Shown here piece after piece: positions 12,392-55,970 of a DNA stretch of 56,903 nt. Location: the IMG/VR virus record IMGVR_UViG_3300022540_000584, positions 1 through 56,903 of that record. The stretch is one strand, 5' to 3'. Source of the stretch: a virus. Every line of letters starts with the position of its first letter. Position 1 is the first letter of the stretch. The notes under the pieces are model-generated. The model had not been told where the DNA came from. It was given only the letters and a program-made list of their open reading frames with translations, and made no database searches. A program made the position numbers and the translations under genes.

Positions 12392-13788
12392 TGAACGAGT
12401 GGGAAAAGTTTTTCAAACAAGCAAAAGAGAAGCTGATTGCCGCCAAGGCGTTGCTTGAGGGCGACGCGCCGGACATGGAGCAGATCAAAGCGCTTCAGGC
12501 TGACGCGGCACAGTTGCAAGAGCGGGCCGAGGCGATGAAGGCCGTGGCGAGTAGCCTCGGCGCGATCGCAGAGCCGCAGTTGCCCGCCGCCCTGCCGACC
12601 GGCCCGGATCCGGCGCCGACGCCCGCGCCGACGCAGGCAGAGCACGATGCCGCTGTAGTGAAGGCTGTAACTATCTTGCGCTTTGGCGTCACCGATGAGC
12701 CGACGTCGCTGGTGATGCGCGAGATTTACGGCGATGACTACCGGCAGAAGTTCTGGGAGCAGGAACAGGGCCTCAAGGCCTACATGCGCGATCCCTATGG
12801 TATGATAGCGCGCGGGCAGCGGCAGATGTGGAGTTCCACCGACGTAGTGGACATGCTCAAGAGCGGCCTAAGCGTCGCCGAGATCAAGGCCACGATGGTT
12901 GAGGGGACTGACATCCTGGGCGGCTTCGCAGTGCCACCGCACGTGATGAGTAACATCATCGCACGGATGAGGGGTCTCACCGCCGTGCGAGAGGGCGGCG
13001 CGCTGATCATCCAGTCTGCGAGCAACATGGTCAAATGGCTGCGGTTAACCGGAGGTGGGAGCCAATATCCAACTGCCATGCGCGGCCTGTGGGGAACCGA
13101 GACTCAGTCGCCGACGGCGGACGACTTCAAGCTCGGAGAATTGGACATCCCGGTGAACGTCTATACCTATAAGGTGAATTTTAGCGTATCATTGCTAGAG
13201 GACGCCGTGAACCTGGTACAGGTGTTCACCAGCCTGGTCGCCGACACGATGGCGATCGACGAGGACACGGTTTGCCTGACCGGGGACGGCGCAGGGAAGC
13301 CGCGCGGCCTCCTGCCCGGCACGGCAGGGAGCGGTGCGAACGCCGACGCGCTGACAGAGGTAGTCTCGGGCCATGCATCGGAAATAGCGATGGACGGCCT
13401 GAAACTGCTCAAGCGCGGCATCCAGTCACAGTACCGCGCAGCCGGCAGGGCTACCCTGATCGGCAACTCTGATACCGGCGCGGATATTGAGACGATGACC
13501 GATGGGATGGGTCGCTACTTCGTAGACGACCTGAATGTAGGCGAGAAGTTCTTGGGCGCTACGTGGCGTGAGAGCGAGAGTATGCCCGACGTGACTGCCG
13601 GGTATTTCCCTCTCATTTATGGCGATATGTCAGGATACGCAATCGTCGAACGCCTGGGTATGGCTATCCAGCGCTATAACGATAGCAATACCGGGATCAA
13701 CCTGGTGCAATTCCACATCCGCCGCCGGTTGGGCGGACGTGTGATTGAGCCGTGGAAATTCGCGGTCCAAGAAGTTGCTGCGAGCTAG
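12391..13788 (+). CDS. Major capsid protein, HK97 fold
   Basis: The 465-aa protein has an N-terminal coiled-coil delta/scaffold domain (residues 1-60), a Pro/Ala linker (about 70-85), then the HK97 capsid domain: DILGGFAVPPHVMSNIIARM, TETQSPTADDFKLGELDIPV, NFSVSLLEDAVNLVQVFTSL and TGDGAGKPRGLLPG. The linker is the likely cleavage region for the protease encoded immediately upstream. Confidence 0.93.
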   Translation: MNEWEKFFKQAKEKLIAAKALLEGDAPDMEQIKALQADAAQLQERAEAMKAVASSLGAIAEPQLPAALPTGPDPAPTPAPTQAEHDAAVVKAVTILRFGVTDEPTSLVMREIYGDDYRQKFWEQEQGLKAYMRDPYGMIARGQRQMWSSTDVVDMLKSGLSVAEIKATMVEGTDILGGFAVPPHVMSNIIARMRGLTAVREGGALIIQSASNMVKWLRLTGGGSQYPTAMRGLWGTETQSPTADDFKLGELDIPVNVYTYKVNFSVSLLEDAVNLVQVFTSLVADTMAIDEDTVCLTGDGAGKPRGLLPGTAGSGANADALTEVVSGHASEIAMDGLKLLKRGIQSQYRAAGRATLIGNSDTGADIETMTDGMGRYFVDDLNVGEKFLGATWRESESMPDVTAGYFPLIYGDMSGYAIVERLGMAIQRYNDSNTGINLVQFHIRRRLGGRVIEPWKFAVQEVAAS

Positions 13789-33831: not shown

Positions 33832-34815
33832 ATGTCAAGAGTAGTAAAAAACCTCAAACACGCTAATGTTGAATTAACAGAGTTTCAATACCAAGTTTGT
33901 CTTGGAACCCTCTTGGGCGATTCATCCCTAAGCAGGCCCAAGAATGGCAGGACTTACCATCTAGCATGTTACCATACTGAGCGTCAATCTGACTGGCTCA
34001 AAATCAAGTGGGATTGGCTGCAACCTTTTAGCAGGCCAATCCAAGTGTGCGAATATCTTGATAAGCGCAACGGCAAGACCTATCGAGGAAGCCGCTTTCA
34101 TACGATCTCCGCTCCTTGTTTCAATGAATTGCATCGGCTGATCTATCCTGATATGAAACGAATCACACATGAACTAATGCAGCAGTTTGTGCATCCTGTG
34201 GCGCTAGCCTGTCTTATTTGTGATGACGGCACTTGGGACAAGGCAGGTATAAGCATTGCAAGTAAACAATTTACCATAGGGGGAAATGAAGTCTTGGCTA
34301 CTACCCTTAGTAATAATTTTGACATTCATGTTACTATGATGGCTAATCAAAAGTATCCATTTGTCAGGATTACAGCCCGATCTGTTGAGAGAACATTCAA
34401 TCTGTGCTCAAAGTACATTCCTGATACAATGTTATATAAGTTTGGTGGAGGCAATTACAAATCTTGTCTAGTTGGAAAGATCACCCAAATATGCCCTACC
34501 TGTGGGAAGCCTTTCCAAGTCTATGCCTCACTCGGCCAAATCTATTGCTCACGTCCTTGTGCACAGATCGGAAGACCCAAAGGATATGAAACAAGAACTG
34601 AAACGGATACCTGCCCTGTATGTGGCAAGACCTTTCTGCGTTATACCAAGCGCCAGCGAACTTGCCCTGATTGCTTTAGAAAGCCATCGCCTGATGAAGT
34701 CTGCCAAATTTGCGGTAAACCTGTTAAGGCCCATGGGCGCAAGCATTGCTCTAAGCGTTGTGGTACTATCGCTGGTCATCTTACCCGTGGGCATAAAGTC
34801 ACACTTCCTATCTAG
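33832..34815 (+). CDS. LAGLIDADG homing endonuclease with C-terminal zinc ribbons
   Basis: The first LAGLIDADG-like helix is YQVCLGTLLGDSSLSRPKNG, the second LACLICDDGTWDKAGISIAS; HTERQSDWLKIKWDWL is typical of the family. The C-terminal 110 residues hold several C-X2-C zinc ribbons (ICPTCGKPF, TCPVCGKTF, VCQICGKPV). It is inserted against the local gene direction, AT-richer, with its own promoter. A methylase-like fragment abuts its 3' end. Confidence 0.85.
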   Translation: MSRVVKNLKHANVELTEFQYQVCLGTLLGDSSLSRPKNGRTYHLACYHTERQSDWLKIKWDWLQPFSRPIQVCEYLDKRNGKTYRGSRFHTISAPCFNELHRLIYPDMKRITHELMQQFVHPVALACLICDDGTWDKAGISIASKQFTIGGNEVLATTLSNNFDIHVTMMANQKYPFVRITARSVERTFNLCSKYIPDTMLYKFGGGNYKSCLVGKITQICPTCGKPFQVYASLGQIYCSRPCAQIGRPKGYETRTETDTCPVCGKTFLRYTKRQRTCPDCFRKPSPDEVCQICGKPVKAHGRKHCSKRCGTIAGHLTRGHKVTLPI

Positions 34816-39066: not shown

Positions 39067-39226
39067 TATACCTCCAAAGCAAAAGACCACCGCTTTGTGT
39101 GAGCCGGTTCCCAGGTCGGCCAGGCGAGCAGATGCGGACACCATGCACGACACTCCGACCCACACAAAGTTGTGGTCTTGCATCTGCTCGTTATTGCGCC
39201 TTGGGACAGACGACTGTTTGTTAATC
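39067..39226 (-). ncRNA. Structured 5' leader of the primase operon with interleaved inverted repeats
   Basis: Plus-strand segments: 39083-39101 pairs with 39161-39179 (AAGACCAC + CTTTGTGTG, 17 of 19 positions), and 39125-39135 pairs with 39180-39190 (CGAGCAGATGC, 11 bp). Their order is A-B-A'-B', so both helices together form an H-type pseudoknot. The last paired base is 7 nt before the Shine-Dalgarno. The role is inferred: translation control of the primase. Confidence 0.7.
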
Positions 39227-52670: not shown

Positions 52671-53149
52671 TAAACCATCCCCGATCTTCCCCAGTTTGGA
52701 CTATGATGATTTATGCACTCTTTTAAGCGAGCAAGATTCCCGCCATATAACCCCGTGGGGCCAGCCTTGTCGGGCGGCGTATCCTTTGCCCTTCCTTCCC
52801 GCTGTAGGAATAATAGCCAGATGGGCCAGGGTGATAATTCTTGGACTCGTAGATAATCCTCATAGTGTCTGAGATCGATGCCCGTTACCCAGCGGCTCGA
52901 TATTCTATGCCAACTGAACGCGCTTTTGTGCTTTGCCTCAATCCACCATACCTTGTCACTTTTACAGCCAAAGGCAAGCAAGTCGGGTGCAATGAGATTG
53001 CTTTGCACAGTGAATATTTGCGGCCCCTTCCCCTCACTAATTTCCTTCTCATAGACTGGCAGGACAGAGTGGCCTTTTCGTTTCAGCCAGTTCGCTATTA
53101 GACTTTCTCCCGCCTTGCCAAAGGCGAGTTGGCGCTCAAAGGTATTCAT
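52601..53149 (-). CDS. PDDEXK nuclease-like protein, 182 aa
   Basis: GKAGESLIANWLKRKGHSVL, then PDLLAFGCKSDKVWWIEAKH, gives the E...D...ExK core of Holliday-resolvase-like or restriction-type nucleases. The end may have been altered by the HNH remnant, because the HNH frame begins inside it. It overlaps the methyltransferase gene by 14 nt. Confidence 0.68.
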   Translation of the reverse strand: MNTFERQLAFGKAGESLIANWLKRKGHSVLPVYEKEISEGKGPQIFTVQSNLIAPDLLAFGCKSDKVWWIEAKHKSAFSWHRISSRWVTGIDLRHYEDYLRVQELSPWPIWLLFLQREGRAKDTPPDKAGPTGLYGGNLARLKECINHHSPNWGRSGMVYWAEETLIKIADLEEVLSASRET

Positions 53150-54059
53150 CTACTCGCTCCATTATTGGCCCCAACTCCTTAAAGATATTTATGAAGCCGA
53201 TCCTATTGCTACCCAGGTAGACGATGACGGAGGGGAATGGTGCGGAGTGTGGCGAGTTCTGGAATTGCAACCGCCCGCGCACCATGCATATCGGGTGCGC
53301 ATAGAGCGGCTGGAACCAGCGCGTATCCGTGCGTCCTGGCAGCAAGGCGATAGCTTCTCTTAGTTCGCCGCTTTCGTATTTGGAGACTAAGGCATCAATC
53401 CATTGTGGTATCTCTGAGCCATAAGGCGGATTCATATATACTGCGCCGTGCCATATTTGCGTTAATCCATCATCTTGCTTGGTATACAAGAAGGTGGCTG
53501 GAACCGCCGGGTTCGTCTTGCTGTTAGAGCAAGGATCGGTGTCAATTGTGCCGTTGAATAATTCCAGCGTCAAATCTATGATGCGCTGAGGGGTATACCA
53601 TTCGGGACTTTCACTGCTACCCATCACAGTCATGGTACCCAATCTTTTTGCTATTCGTAGTAAGCCAGCACTAGTCAGTTCTTTTCCCTCTGTCTTTGTT
53701 TTAGTTACATATTGTTCAAATCTTTCCGGGGGCACCTTGATTTCCAATCCCCAATGATGAGATTGATCTTTGGTGAGGCCAATATCTTTCAACGTCAACA
53801 TCGCATCATGCGATCTTGATCCACCGTGTGAAGCCAGCTCGCCCCTTTCGCGCATCTCTTGTAGTATCTTGCCCGCCCGCCGCTCAGCACGCAACTTCAC
53901 CTCGGCAGCATCGTTCTGCATCTCTAGGCCGTACTCTGCCAGACGAAAGCATTGCCGCATTGCCTCTGCCTGATTGCGGATGTTTTTGACTTCGGCTATC
54001 GTCTTTGCCTCTGCCAGTGCGGTTTCAATAGCGTTCAGTTGAACTAATGCGTTTGACAT
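53136..54059 (-). CDS. DNA N6-adenine methyltransferase (Dam-type) with helical N-terminal domain
   Basis: The C-terminal half (about 150-300) is a phage Dam-like domain: SPEWYTPQRIIDLTLELFNG, DTDPC (173-177), VYMNPPYG (NPPY 210-213), LLPGRTDTRWFQ. It methylates adenine to escape restriction or mark DNA. Residues 1-140 are helical with a DNA-binding look (LTLKDIGLTKDQSHHWGLEI, GKELTSAGLLRIAKRLG). GGAGG precedes the chosen ATG. It is first in the leftward arm, after a pseudoknot-like leader. Confidence 0.82.
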   Translation of the reverse strand: MSNALVQLNAIETALAEAKTIAEVKNIRNQAEAMRQCFRLAEYGLEMQNDAAEVKLRAERRAGKILQEMRERGELASHGGSRSHDAMLTLKDIGLTKDQSHHWGLEIKVPPERFEQYVTKTKTEGKELTSAGLLRIAKRLGTMTVMGSSESPEWYTPQRIIDLTLELFNGTIDTDPCSNSKTNPAVPATFLYTKQDDGLTQIWHGAVYMNPPYGSEIPQWIDALVSKYESGELREAIALLPGRTDTRWFQPLYAHPICMVRGRLQFQNSPHSAPFPSVIVYLGSNRIGFINIFKELGPIMERVDEYL

Positions 54060-54186
54060 TTTACCTCCATAAAAGGCGACTCCCGCAATCCGGGCGCTTG
54101 TCTGTGTCAAGAGGCAAACGGCTTTAGACTGCGGGAGTCATGTTGGCACAAAAAAAGCCACCACTGCCGTTGTGTGCCTCTTGACG
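54060..54186 (-). ncRNA. Structured 5' leader of the methyltransferase gene with interleaved inverted repeats
   Basis: Plus-strand 54078-54087 (GACTCCCGCA) pairs with 54130-54139 (10 bp), and 54107-54122 (TCAAGAGGCA + ACGGC) pairs with 54166-54184 (15 bp with an internal loop). The order is A-B-A'-B', as in the primase leader, and the last strand ends 9 nt before the Shine-Dalgarno. The 5'-most strand sits almost at the predicted transcription start. A U7 tract lies in the first loop. Confidence 0.7.
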
Positions 54187-54191
54187 ATTTT

Positions 54192-54220
54192 AGTATATAC
54201 CCGTTTAGGTAATTTGTCAA
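54192..54220 (-). promoter_or_regulatory. Leftward promoter of the early arm
   Basis: Reading leftward: TTGACA, 17 nt, TATACT. Consensus spacing and -35. The -35 is one arm of the central palindrome. Confidence 0.85.
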
Positions 54221-54234
54221 GCAGACTTGACAAA
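54213..54234. promoter_or_regulatory. Operator-like palindrome between divergent promoters
   Basis: TTTGTCAAG-CAGA-CTTGACAAA has 9-bp arms. Each arm contains the -35 box of one promoter, so a protein bound here would block or coordinate both. Confidence 0.75.
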
Positions 54235-54255
54235 GCCTATCAAATTTGGTACAAT
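54227..54255 (+). promoter_or_regulatory. Rightward promoter opposite the early arm
   Basis: TTGACA, 17 nt, TACAAT, inside TTGGTACAATGGTAC. The predicted start is at or next to an ATG at 54262. Confidence 0.85.
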
Positions 54256-54261
54256 GGTACT

Positions 54262-54350
54262 ATGAGCCTGACTGCGAGTACGCTCAGGCAGGTATGAAGC
54301 GCACGGCTGCCGGCGGTCGCAAAGCGGCCCCGGCGGGAAACTTAAATTAG
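54262..54350 (+). CDS. Two overlapping leader peptides and 5' hairpin
   Basis: The ATG at the predicted transcription start encodes MSLTASTLRQV. Its stop overlaps a second ATG (54294) for the 18-residue basic peptide MKRTAAGGRKAAPAGNLN, which has AGGCAGGT before it. GCCTGA-CT-GCG-AGTA-CGC-TCAGGC (54266-54289) folds into a bulged hairpin. They may be leader peptides or only a structured leader. Confidence 0.35.
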
Positions 54351-54359
54351 GTCGGCATT

Positions 54360-54599
54360 ATGGCGAACTGGCGCGCAGACGACAGCACAAATATTCGCCC
54401 GGCCTGGGCAGAAACGTTGATTGCGTGGTGTGATGTGCGCGGTCACGACACTACAGATGCAAGTCGCGTGTGCCTGAGCAACGCGCCTGAGTGGCACTTG
54501 ATACGCAGGCCAGCGACATGGGCAGTTATTCCTAAAGCAGAGGCCACGAGTCGAATCAGTCAAACAGCAGAGGTCACGAGTCGAATTAGTCAAACTTAA
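54360..54599 (+). CDS. Unknown 79-aa protein ending in tandem repeats
   Basis: It encodes MANWRADDSTNIRPAWAETL, VCLSNAPEWHLIRRPATWAV and then two copies of EATSRISQT-type repeats. The ribosome site is weak (TTAGGTCGG). It is the first real gene of the rightward arm if translated. The function is unknown. Confidence 0.5.
   Translation: MANWRADDSTNIRPAWAETLIAWCDVRGHDTTDASRVCLSNAPEWHLIRRPATWAVIPKAEATSRISQTAEVTSRISQT
54536..54595 (+). repeat. 30-bp tandem repeat, 2 copies
   Basis: AGCAGAGGCCACGAGTCGAA plus ten more bases is repeated directly with two C/T differences, adding ten codons to the host gene's 3' end. Confidence 0.85.
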
Positions 54600-54785: not shown

Positions 54786-55061
54786 ATGTCTGTGAATGCA
54801 GGATTACTGGCAACGGCGGCGTTCTTGGCGACCGTCACGAACCGGCTGGTCGAGGGGCTCGTCAAGCCGGTTTTCGTTAAATACAAGTGGGACACCTTCT
54901 GGCTCATGTACGTCGCCTGGGCCGTCGGCGCGGGGCTGGTGTTCGCCGCGGGCATCAACCTGTTTCCCGGCGTCTTCGTCCATCCCGCCATCGGCCTGGT
55001 GCTGACGGCGCTGGTGGCGGGTGGTGGAGCAAATTTACTTAACGATATTTTTCAACGCTAA
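54786..55061 (+). CDS. Holin-like membrane protein, 91 aa
   Basis: AGGAGG precedes the ATG. VNAGLLATAAFLATVTNRLV and two membrane helices (FWLMYVAWAVGAGLVFAAGI, AIGLVLTALVAGGGANLL) match a small phage membrane protein group usually called holins. It would form the membrane lesion that releases the amidase, though it lies about 31 kb (circularly) from the endolysin. Confidence 0.6.
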   Translation: MSVNAGLLATAAFLATVTNRLVEGLVKPVFVKYKWDTFWLMYVAWAVGAGLVFAAGINLFPGVFVHPAIGLVLTALVAGGGANLLNDIFQR

Positions 55062-55970
55062 TTGCTTGGGAACGCTAAAGAAGCGCCCGCGTTTTCTCTC
55101 TAAGCAGAGCGGTGTTTTAGCGTACATAAATTGCGCCACAGCCATCACCTTACTCAGTGCATGTATTCTGAGGCGATAGGTTTTATGACCTTTTGCAAGG
55201 ATTGTCTCTATACCTGTTAAGCGGAAGAGTCTGACAGACGCATCTTCTAAAAGAGATATGTTTTTTGAGACGAGGTTGAATTGAGGGCGATGTCGTTTAT
55301 TGTTCTTGAACCAAACGCTACCATCCGCATCGAACCAACCACATAGGAATGAATTGAAAAATTCGTCTGGTATTGCGGGTAGGCATCTCATACTATTCTT
55401 GATTGGGAGCATGCCGATGGAAGTGAGGAAATTGTGGAAAGTCTTGGAACCTAAAATGATACGGTGGCAACTTTCAACTCTAATAATAGTCCGTCCTTGC
55501 CACAATTTTGATAAATGATCTAAATGAGATTTGTCGGAACTGATTAGGCTAACTGAAACTTGATATTGATTAGGATGTTTTTGATCTTTGGGATTGGACA
55601 TAGCACCATCGCCAAGTATTAATCCAACAGTATAGGCCAATAGATGATTCCATTCATTGAAAACAAACTTTGTTTTTTCAACACGCTTCCCGCCCTTGAT
55701 TGGGAAATTGAGTCGATTTGCCTTTCGCTGAATGGCAGAACTATCGCATCCAACCTGGGTTGCAATTTCAGCACAGGTCATACCAGATTTCAGCAACGAT
55801 AATACCTTTTCATCACTGATGACACGGCGGAATATAGCCTGTTCGTTTTGGGTGCGAATCTTTAGACCATAACTTAACAACATGGCTTTTGCAGCCCGCC
55901 AGGAGATACCTAGCCGATTAGCAATGGAGTTTACGCTTTCACCAGAAGAATAGTCATCAATTAAGCTCAT
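55035..55970 (-). CDS. LAGLIDADG homing endonuclease with N-terminal HTH repeats
   Basis: Residues 1-75 hold two HTH units (VNSIANRLGISWRAAKAMLL, TCAEIATQVGCDSSAIQRKA). LAYTVGLILGDGAMSN and FLCGWFDADGSVWF are the two LAGLIDADG helices. It is AT-rich, opposite to its neighbours, and overlaps the holin gene's 3' end by 27 nt. TTGCTA-N17-TATAAT ends 6 nt before the ATG, suggesting a leaderless mRNA. Confidence 0.88.
   Translation of the reverse strand: MSLIDDYSSGESVNSIANRLGISWRAAKAMLLSYGLKIRTQNEQAIFRRVISDEKVLSLLKSGMTCAEIATQVGCDSSAIQRKANRLNFPIKGGKRVEKTKFVFNEWNHLLAYTVGLILGDGAMSNPKDQKHPNQYQVSVSLISSDKSHLDHLSKLWQGRTIIRVESCHRIILGSKTFHNFLTSIGMLPIKNSMRCLPAIPDEFFNSFLCGWFDADGSVWFKNNKRHRPQFNLVSKNISLLEDASVRLFRLTGIETILAKGHKTYRLRIHALSKVMAVAQFMYAKTPLCLERKRGRFFSVPKQLALKNIVK

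Follow-up and report, generated by a model that had tools for sequence, protein, structure and literature searches.

The Dam-type methyltransferase operon of this virus is headed by a cis-acting leader RNA that is predicted to begin at the first transcribed base of its promoter and that is, judging by the covariation of its paired bases, an H-type pseudoknot. Together with counterparts at other operons and in other viruses, it makes up what we take to be a new family of cis-acting phage leaders, located at operon heads in an uncultured phage group, in which the fold is kept while the sequence is rewritten. The window, by which we mean the whole stretch of DNA analysed, is a 56,903-base virus record with late genes on its plus strand and early and replication genes on its minus strand.

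Anatomy of the Dam-operon leader

The leader is encoded on the minus strand and is flanked by a TTGACA-17-TATACT promoter (54192–54220; -35 box at 54220-54215, -10 box at 54197-54192; 11 of 12 consensus matches) and the Shine-Dalgarno sequence (SD) GGAGG (54064–54068) of the first gene, which encodes the Dam-type N6-adenine methyltransferase (53136–54059, minus strand; PF05869). The promoter has counterparts at the same place in loci L002, L003, L004 and L099. The original prediction had placed two inverted repeats here, alternating as A-B-A'-B' behind a well-spaced promoter, and repeats, order and promoter were all recovered, while the stem sizes had to be corrected. Instead of the proposed 10 + 5 bp, stem A (54185-54166 paired with 54122-54106) consists of 11 and 6 bp around a 3-nt bulge on its 5' side (CAC, 54172–54174). 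Its 5' arm is formed by GUCAAGAGGCA in the outer helix (54175–54185) and AACGGC in the inner helix (54166–54171), its 3' arm by GCCGUU followed by UGCCUCUUGAC (54106–54122). Stem B (54139-54126 paired with 54091-54078) joins the hairpin loop of A to the RNA directly behind A'; it contains the 10-bp core that had been described (5' side at 54139-54130) and extends to 14 bp with two G-U pairs, its arms being GACUCCCGCAGUCU (54126–54139) and GGAU UGCGGGAGUC (54078–54091). The connecting segments are a 26-nt loop 1 (54140–54165) with a predicted small hairpin and a U7 tract (54156-54150), the AAA of loop 2 (54123–54125) and a 14-nt loop 3 (54092–54105), all on the minus strand. B' ends at 54078, 9 nt ahead of GGAGG as originally noted, and the spacer between stem B and the SD, GCCUUUUAU (54069–54077, minus strand), is U-rich with a U run at 54074-54071. 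Stem A starts at 54185, the seventh nucleotide past the -10 box and therefore the predicted +1, so the transcript is predicted to start base-paired.

When scored by summed stacking energy only, the best crossing helix pair of this leader reached -54.1 kcal/mol compared to a mean of -25.9 ± 3.3 kcal/mol in 1000 dinucleotide shuffles, none of which equalled it, in agreement with the earlier view that chance is an unlikely origin. The score was attained by only 0.07% of 1440 stretches of 200 nt drawn at random from the same genomes. By hand estimate, the energy of the full pseudoknot is similar to, or somewhat better than, that of the nested folds.

Conservation and covariation of the pairing

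The same leader was found in three other viruses, each time after a promoter: at L002 and L003, reached via the methyltransferase, and at L004 (equal to L006), reached via the A-arm pattern. At L004/L006 the next gene encodes an HNH endonuclease (PF01844) instead of Dam; leader identity is 95%, whereas the next 300 nt align at 50%, which is the random level, and the upstream DNA at 55%. Such preservation of the leader in front of an unrelated gene suggests that it controls the operon and not one particular gene. Among the four leaders (window, L002, L003 and L004) outer A is invariant, and inner A, rewritten as GCGAG/CUCGU, and B carry compensatory changes in L003; on its own, the four-leader covariation score is weak, as 22 of 500 shuffles reach it.

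A covariance model (R1) built from stem A only of these four leaders retrieved a second, sequence-divergent leader in the L004 virus (G004:29219-29330; 39 bits, E about 7e-8). Its arms are rewritten, A as GUCGGGACAAC-CUA-GUCCA .. UGGAU-GUUGUCCCGAC, with the inner helix of L099 (GUCCA/UGGAU), and B as GGCCCCC/GGGGGCC. The anatomy is kept throughout, running from +1 through 11 bp, the 3-nt bulge, 5 bp, a U-rich loop 1, B, UUAA, A', B' and a U run to the SD. The resulting alignment comprises five leader sequences, two being very similar. Both partners have changed in 12 of its 31 pairs, 94% of its cells pair, and all 500 shuffles or slid versions fell well short of this. The doubly changed pairs are spread over outer A (6/11, changed in L099), inner A (2/6) and B (4/14, with compensatory changes in L003 and L099). 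Since the model fitted the alignment to stem A only and left stem B unaligned, it gives no advantage to the four stem B pairs that changed on both sides. The 3-nt bulge on the 5' side of stem A recurs in L003 (CAC), in L099 (CUA) and in the HNH leader of genome G003 (AAG). Thus, the two general marks of an H-type pseudoknot leader, interleaved helices beyond shuffled controls and compensatory changes in both of them, are found here, and the proposed conservation of the pairing in homologous viruses holds, as it does for the primase-type leader described below.

Both helices also contain G-U pairs on the transcribed sense strand, which point to RNA rather than DNA. Chance inverted repeats, or an element acting at the DNA level such as an operator or a cruciform, could be suspected from an inverted repeat, TTTGTCAAG..CTTGACAAA, that overlaps the divergent -35 boxes just upstream, but this explanation is contradicted by the covariation with sense-strand G-U pairs, and the shuffle tests and the fixed position of the leaders after promoters likewise speak against it, such that we give it almost no credence.

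A family of leaders with two layouts

The second leader of the window precedes the replication/primase operon (39083–39190, minus strand; promoter 39260-39233) and is composed of stem A (CGAGCAGAUGC/GCAUCUGCUCG) and stem B (AAGACCACaaCUUUGUGUGGGUCGG/CCGGCUCACACAAAGcgGUGGUCUU). The two leaders had been thought to share one architecture. This applies to their topology but not to their geometry, as in the primase leader loop 1 is nearly absent, loop 2 is long, and stem B has 23 bp with an internal loop. A homolog was found at the head of the early operon in another virus (L012, genome G003); compared with the window primase leader, it has new sequences in A, B and an enclosing helix, and seven pairs differ on both sides (1 of 500 shuffles).

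Scanning the strong promoters of five viruses revealed more leaders at the replication operons of G002, G003 and G004, and one more before another endonuclease-like gene of G003. Nine of the 37 strong promoters fell within the best 1% of the genomic background, and 10 of the 37 beat 100 of 100 shuffles compared to 2 of 31 promoters of control contigs, in an enrichment test that was refined after looking at the data and with the control set run under the same script. One of these two control promoters, L031 at 6729, resembles a further family member. When homologous leaders are counted singly, the sites amount to about seven unrelated arm sets. These results support the suggestion of a class of pseudoknotted leader RNAs at operon heads. 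The leaders do head early operons, as had been proposed, but not exclusively, since replication and homing-endonuclease operons carry them as well.

By geometry the leaders take two forms. In layout 1 (the window Dam leader, L099, G004 replication and G003 endonuclease) stem A stands at +1 and carries the 3-nt 5'-side bulge, replaced by a 7/4 internal loop in G004 replication, loop 1 is always U-rich, and loop 2 is short to moderate. In layout 2 (the window primase leader, L012 early, and the G002 and G003 replication leaders) B follows A directly or after a few nucleotides, loop 2 is long, and the RNA is unsealed at +1, with A of the window primase leader starting about 38 nt in. The two layouts may be interchangeable, as L012 shows layout 2 at a place where layout 1 is found in its relatives.

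Four leaders precede HNH or HTH/HNH-type (homing) endonuclease-like genes, namely L006 10511-10891, L099 734-1489, L012 1706-2443 and L109 about 12530-13032, with the likeness of the L099 and L109 genes judged by reading and weak HTH matches only; one may therefore ask whether leader and endonuclease are transmitted jointly. The virus also has LAGLIDADG-type endonuclease genes of its own, at 55035-55970 (minus strand) and 33832-34815 (plus strand) of the window.

Beyond this group, no match was obtained when 400 Chloroflexota genomes were searched with the leader model or phage and plasmid collections by leader similarity, and no relatives of the primase protein were found in viral contigs. 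Genome-wide matches to the A-arm pattern turned out to be an unrelated repeat in an Akkermansiaceae MAG and a long intergenic hairpin in a Chloroflexi MAG from groundwater (L090 2121-2196), whose arm GTCAAGAGGCAAGAGGCACACGGCGG resembles the leader A arm, likely by chance or as a genomic repeat. Of the contigs recovered with a loose pattern, 42 of 46 were without a leader-like A-B-A'-B' order, and L046 was a chance match inside a terminase gene.

Other elements around the leader and in the early region

Back to back with the Dam-leader promoter stands a divergent promoter, TTGACA-17-TACAAT (54227–54255, plus strand), which also occurs in L011, L030, L009 and L012. Its transcript (54262-54360, plus strand) opens with GC-rich hairpins, GCCUGA..UCAGGC and then GCCGG..CCGGC, for which no conservation was seen in the relatives looked at. 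Further downstream, a 30-nt repeat in two tandem copies that are 93% alike (54536-54595) precedes the second small plus-strand gene.

The early region also harbours a repeated intergenic element of about 100 nt, present in several copies per virus, that ends just before the SDs of small early genes (window 51810-51700 and 52244-52182, minus strand; L002 8125-8225 and 8827-8917; L003 8581-8675). Within it, CCAGUUGCGCGACCUGGACAAAACGCGC resembles a small H-type pseudoknot with an A-rich loop and is followed by a GC hairpin and GAUAACCAGGAUGAGAAACCC. Fused to this element is a conserved non-coding stretch of about 190-250 nt with 72-79% identity, located after a TTGACT-17-TATAAT promoter (window 52430-52240, minus strand; L002 7648-7819; L006 11348-11507), which is probably another structured RNA.

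Terminator-like character of the leaders

Stem B and the U run before the SD form a putative intrinsic-terminator signature with an unusually long, A'-containing loop. At least four U in a row occur within 12 nt after B' in all ten tabulated leader sites (including L031), usually followed by the SD; the runs comprise four to six U and are terminator-grade at most of the sites (UUUUUGUUUU, UUUUUUAUUU, UUUUUGCUUU). As background, UUUU is found in 1.5-2.4% of the 12-nt windows of the window genome. Only one of 66 SD sites of the window, that of the Dam leader, has UUUU ahead of it, in a count that omits the primase SD (missed by the automatic start choice), which also has UUUU ahead. Many B stems open with an A tract, and several have an A-tract/GC-stem/U-tract form, e.g., AAAGCCCCACGC..GCGUGGGGCUUUUUGCUUU and ..GGGCGGUUUUUGUUUU. 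Of the usual features of an intrinsic terminator, the GC-rich stem followed by a U run is present, even though the Dam leader, with 5 U in 10 nt, is weak in this respect, but the short loop of 3-8 nt is not, as the B arms enclose loop 2, A' and loop 3, which add up to 34 nt in the window leader. Usually the SD is left open, at 8-9 nt from B'; that of the G003 endonuclease leader falls within B'. The U7 tract in loop 1 had been put forward as a pause or attenuation element and was rejected as part of a terminator, because in three of four homologs the preceding RNA has only a weak fold; for attenuation, the U run behind B' is the better candidate.

Possible functions of the leader

Based on these features, the likeliest function of the leader is that of a transcription attenuator with a pseudoknotted terminator, an assignment that we make with somewhat less than even confidence. 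Stem B and its U run would act as an intrinsic-terminator-like element between promoter and SD. On a transcript starting, as predicted, at 54185, the A 5' arm may at an early stage pair locally, and the A 5' arm and A' would be the first of the two helices to form, as A' leaves the polymerase. Prediction of nascent folding gives this order, the local hairpin GGCACA/UGUGCC, then A-A', then B-B', an order predicted for window-type leaders only, as L099 has a different early hairpin. Full closure of B-B' over the U run would then set termination versus read-through into the operon, and an RNA stopped at the U run would be short, knotted and sealed at its 5' end. Helix A, formed before B, would be the natural control point, since closing a long B helix through A's loop while the polymerase holds the 3' end should be slow. 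Taken further, the leaders could be a sequence-free, architecture-only family of interlocked attenuators, reused at operon heads with rewritten arms, in which the first helix closes the loop that has to be threaded and thereby controls terminator closure of the second; we consider this extended version rather unlikely. Against attenuation, the window's own U run, GCCUUUUAU, is short, so a terminator there would be weak, the 34-nt B loop is large for a terminator, the U-rich spacer could equally serve ribosome binding, and the SD inside B' of the G003 endonuclease leader fits translational control as well. No alternative fold that excludes B alone was found.

A module for translation and mRNA stability is a serious contender, albeit one that we doubt more than we believe. 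The 5'-sealed knot would shield the triphosphate from RppH and RNases E/J, while the knot, with its U-rich loop and the U-rich spacer, would dock S1 and the 30S subunit by the SD. Consistent with this, A stands at the predicted +1 in all layout-1 leaders, loop and spacer are U-rich, and the SD is usually open at its distance of 8-9 nt from B'. There is precedent for both halves: binding of S1 and 30S to tisB depends on a pseudoknot at the 5' end (PMC7708055), and RoxS protects a 5' end from RNase J1, an enzyme that is blocked by a paired 5' end because its channel requires 4-5 single-stranded nt (PMC5419742). However, layout-2 leaders are unsealed at +1, and ribosome docking has no need for the A-tract/U-tract form of many B stems.

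The same leader ahead of different genes is what would be expected of an operon-wide signal, and could therefore also mark the binding site of a trans-acting phage or host protein, be it a translational operator as in T4 gene 32 or a polymerase-modifying RNA like HK022 put. Pseudoknot operators are known from T4 gene 32 (PMC3014915), but here the arms are wholly rewritten and no sequence common to the loops was found beyond U runs, making a sequence-specific reader unlikely, and the early operon contains few terminator-like sites on which an antiterminator could act, so that we regard a protein-binding site as improbable. Antitermination via internal terminators was likewise dismissed, as terminator-like sites are fewer than in shuffles. 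Promoter, sealed 5' end and terminator-like 3' end would also delimit an RNA of about 110 nt, as if the leader were mainly a small RNA gene whose stable, knotted product stops at the U run and acts in trans (e.g., in superinfection control), with read-through feeding the operon; yet the arms are unrelated between leaders and no common target is to be expected, which renders this reading quite improbable. Leader-peptide control would require a ribosome on a possible 5-codon ORF over the B 5' arm, AUG ACU CCC GCA GUC UAA (MTPAV; 54124–54141, minus strand), to open stem B. AUG/GUG start and UAA stop keep the same spacing in the window, L002, L003, L004 and L099, with frames of equal length in L003 (VTPTA, GUG..UAA) and L099 (MAPKG, AUG..UAA), but the ORF is without an SD and absent in the same form from other leaders, and the A and U there may be kept for loop structure; we deem such control very improbable indeed.

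We make no claim for two further pairings. A helix joining loops 1 and 3, the third in the fold, can be drawn by eye in all lineages, but the G003 endonuclease leader is the only one in which it beats shuffles (p=0.003; 0.05-0.68 in the others). For the window type, pairing of GCCUUUU with the A 5' arm as an anti-SD is possible by eye, in a register that is not kept elsewhere. If their function is confirmed, the leaders would represent a phage gene-control device that sequence searches miss because only the architecture is conserved, and a concrete system in which to ask whether a pseudoknot acts as, or blocks, a transcription terminator.

Comparison with known systems

From its features, the leader would work like a structured cis-acting mRNA leader and is not a member of any named family tested. 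At gathering threshold, no Rfam 15 covariance model matched the window or the six loci, and at relaxed threshold there were chance-level matches only. In transcription attenuators and pseudoknot-containing riboswitches such as preQ1-I and fluoride, promoter, pseudoknot, U run and SD follow each other in this order, and the knot excludes a separate terminator. The present leaders have the same order, but here the knot's own stem B is the terminator-like stem. As for the conserved unpaired nucleotides of a riboswitch, the four unrelated layout-1 lineages share U runs and no common loop motif when compared by eye, which is a weak test. HK022 put RNA comprises two simple hairpins that act on the polymerase, at the 5' start of early operons; the present leaders are likewise structured RNAs at such a position, but with interleaved stems.

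Structured motifs upstream of genes are also known from phages in the form of the manA and wcaG RNAs, which are cyanophage leaders (PMC2864571), and no match of the present leaders to their Rfam models was reported. Closer in form are E. coli tisB and timP, where a 5'-proximal pseudoknot of the mRNA leader governs expression of the next gene (PMC7708055, PMC11228461). These pseudoknots are standby sites of chromosomal type I toxin mRNAs, whereas the RNAs described here are phage operon leaders, sealed at +1 in the Dam type, with a usually open SD and a U run after B. In phage T4, the gene 32 mRNA carries a leader pseudoknot ahead of its ribosome site; gp32 recognises this knot, an A+U-rich stretch containing UUAA(A) repeats comes next, and a single gene is served (PMC3014915). 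Unlike in T4, the gene that comes next does not encode the binding protein, as the present leaders precede Dam, HNH endonuclease or replication genes, and they are without the UUAA repeat region. Pseudoknotted leaders are uncommon in phages, and a 2010 review regards the T4-type gene 32 leader as perhaps the only viral pseudoknot in translational autoregulation (PMC3014915); in this virus group, pseudoknots follow about a quarter of the strong promoters.
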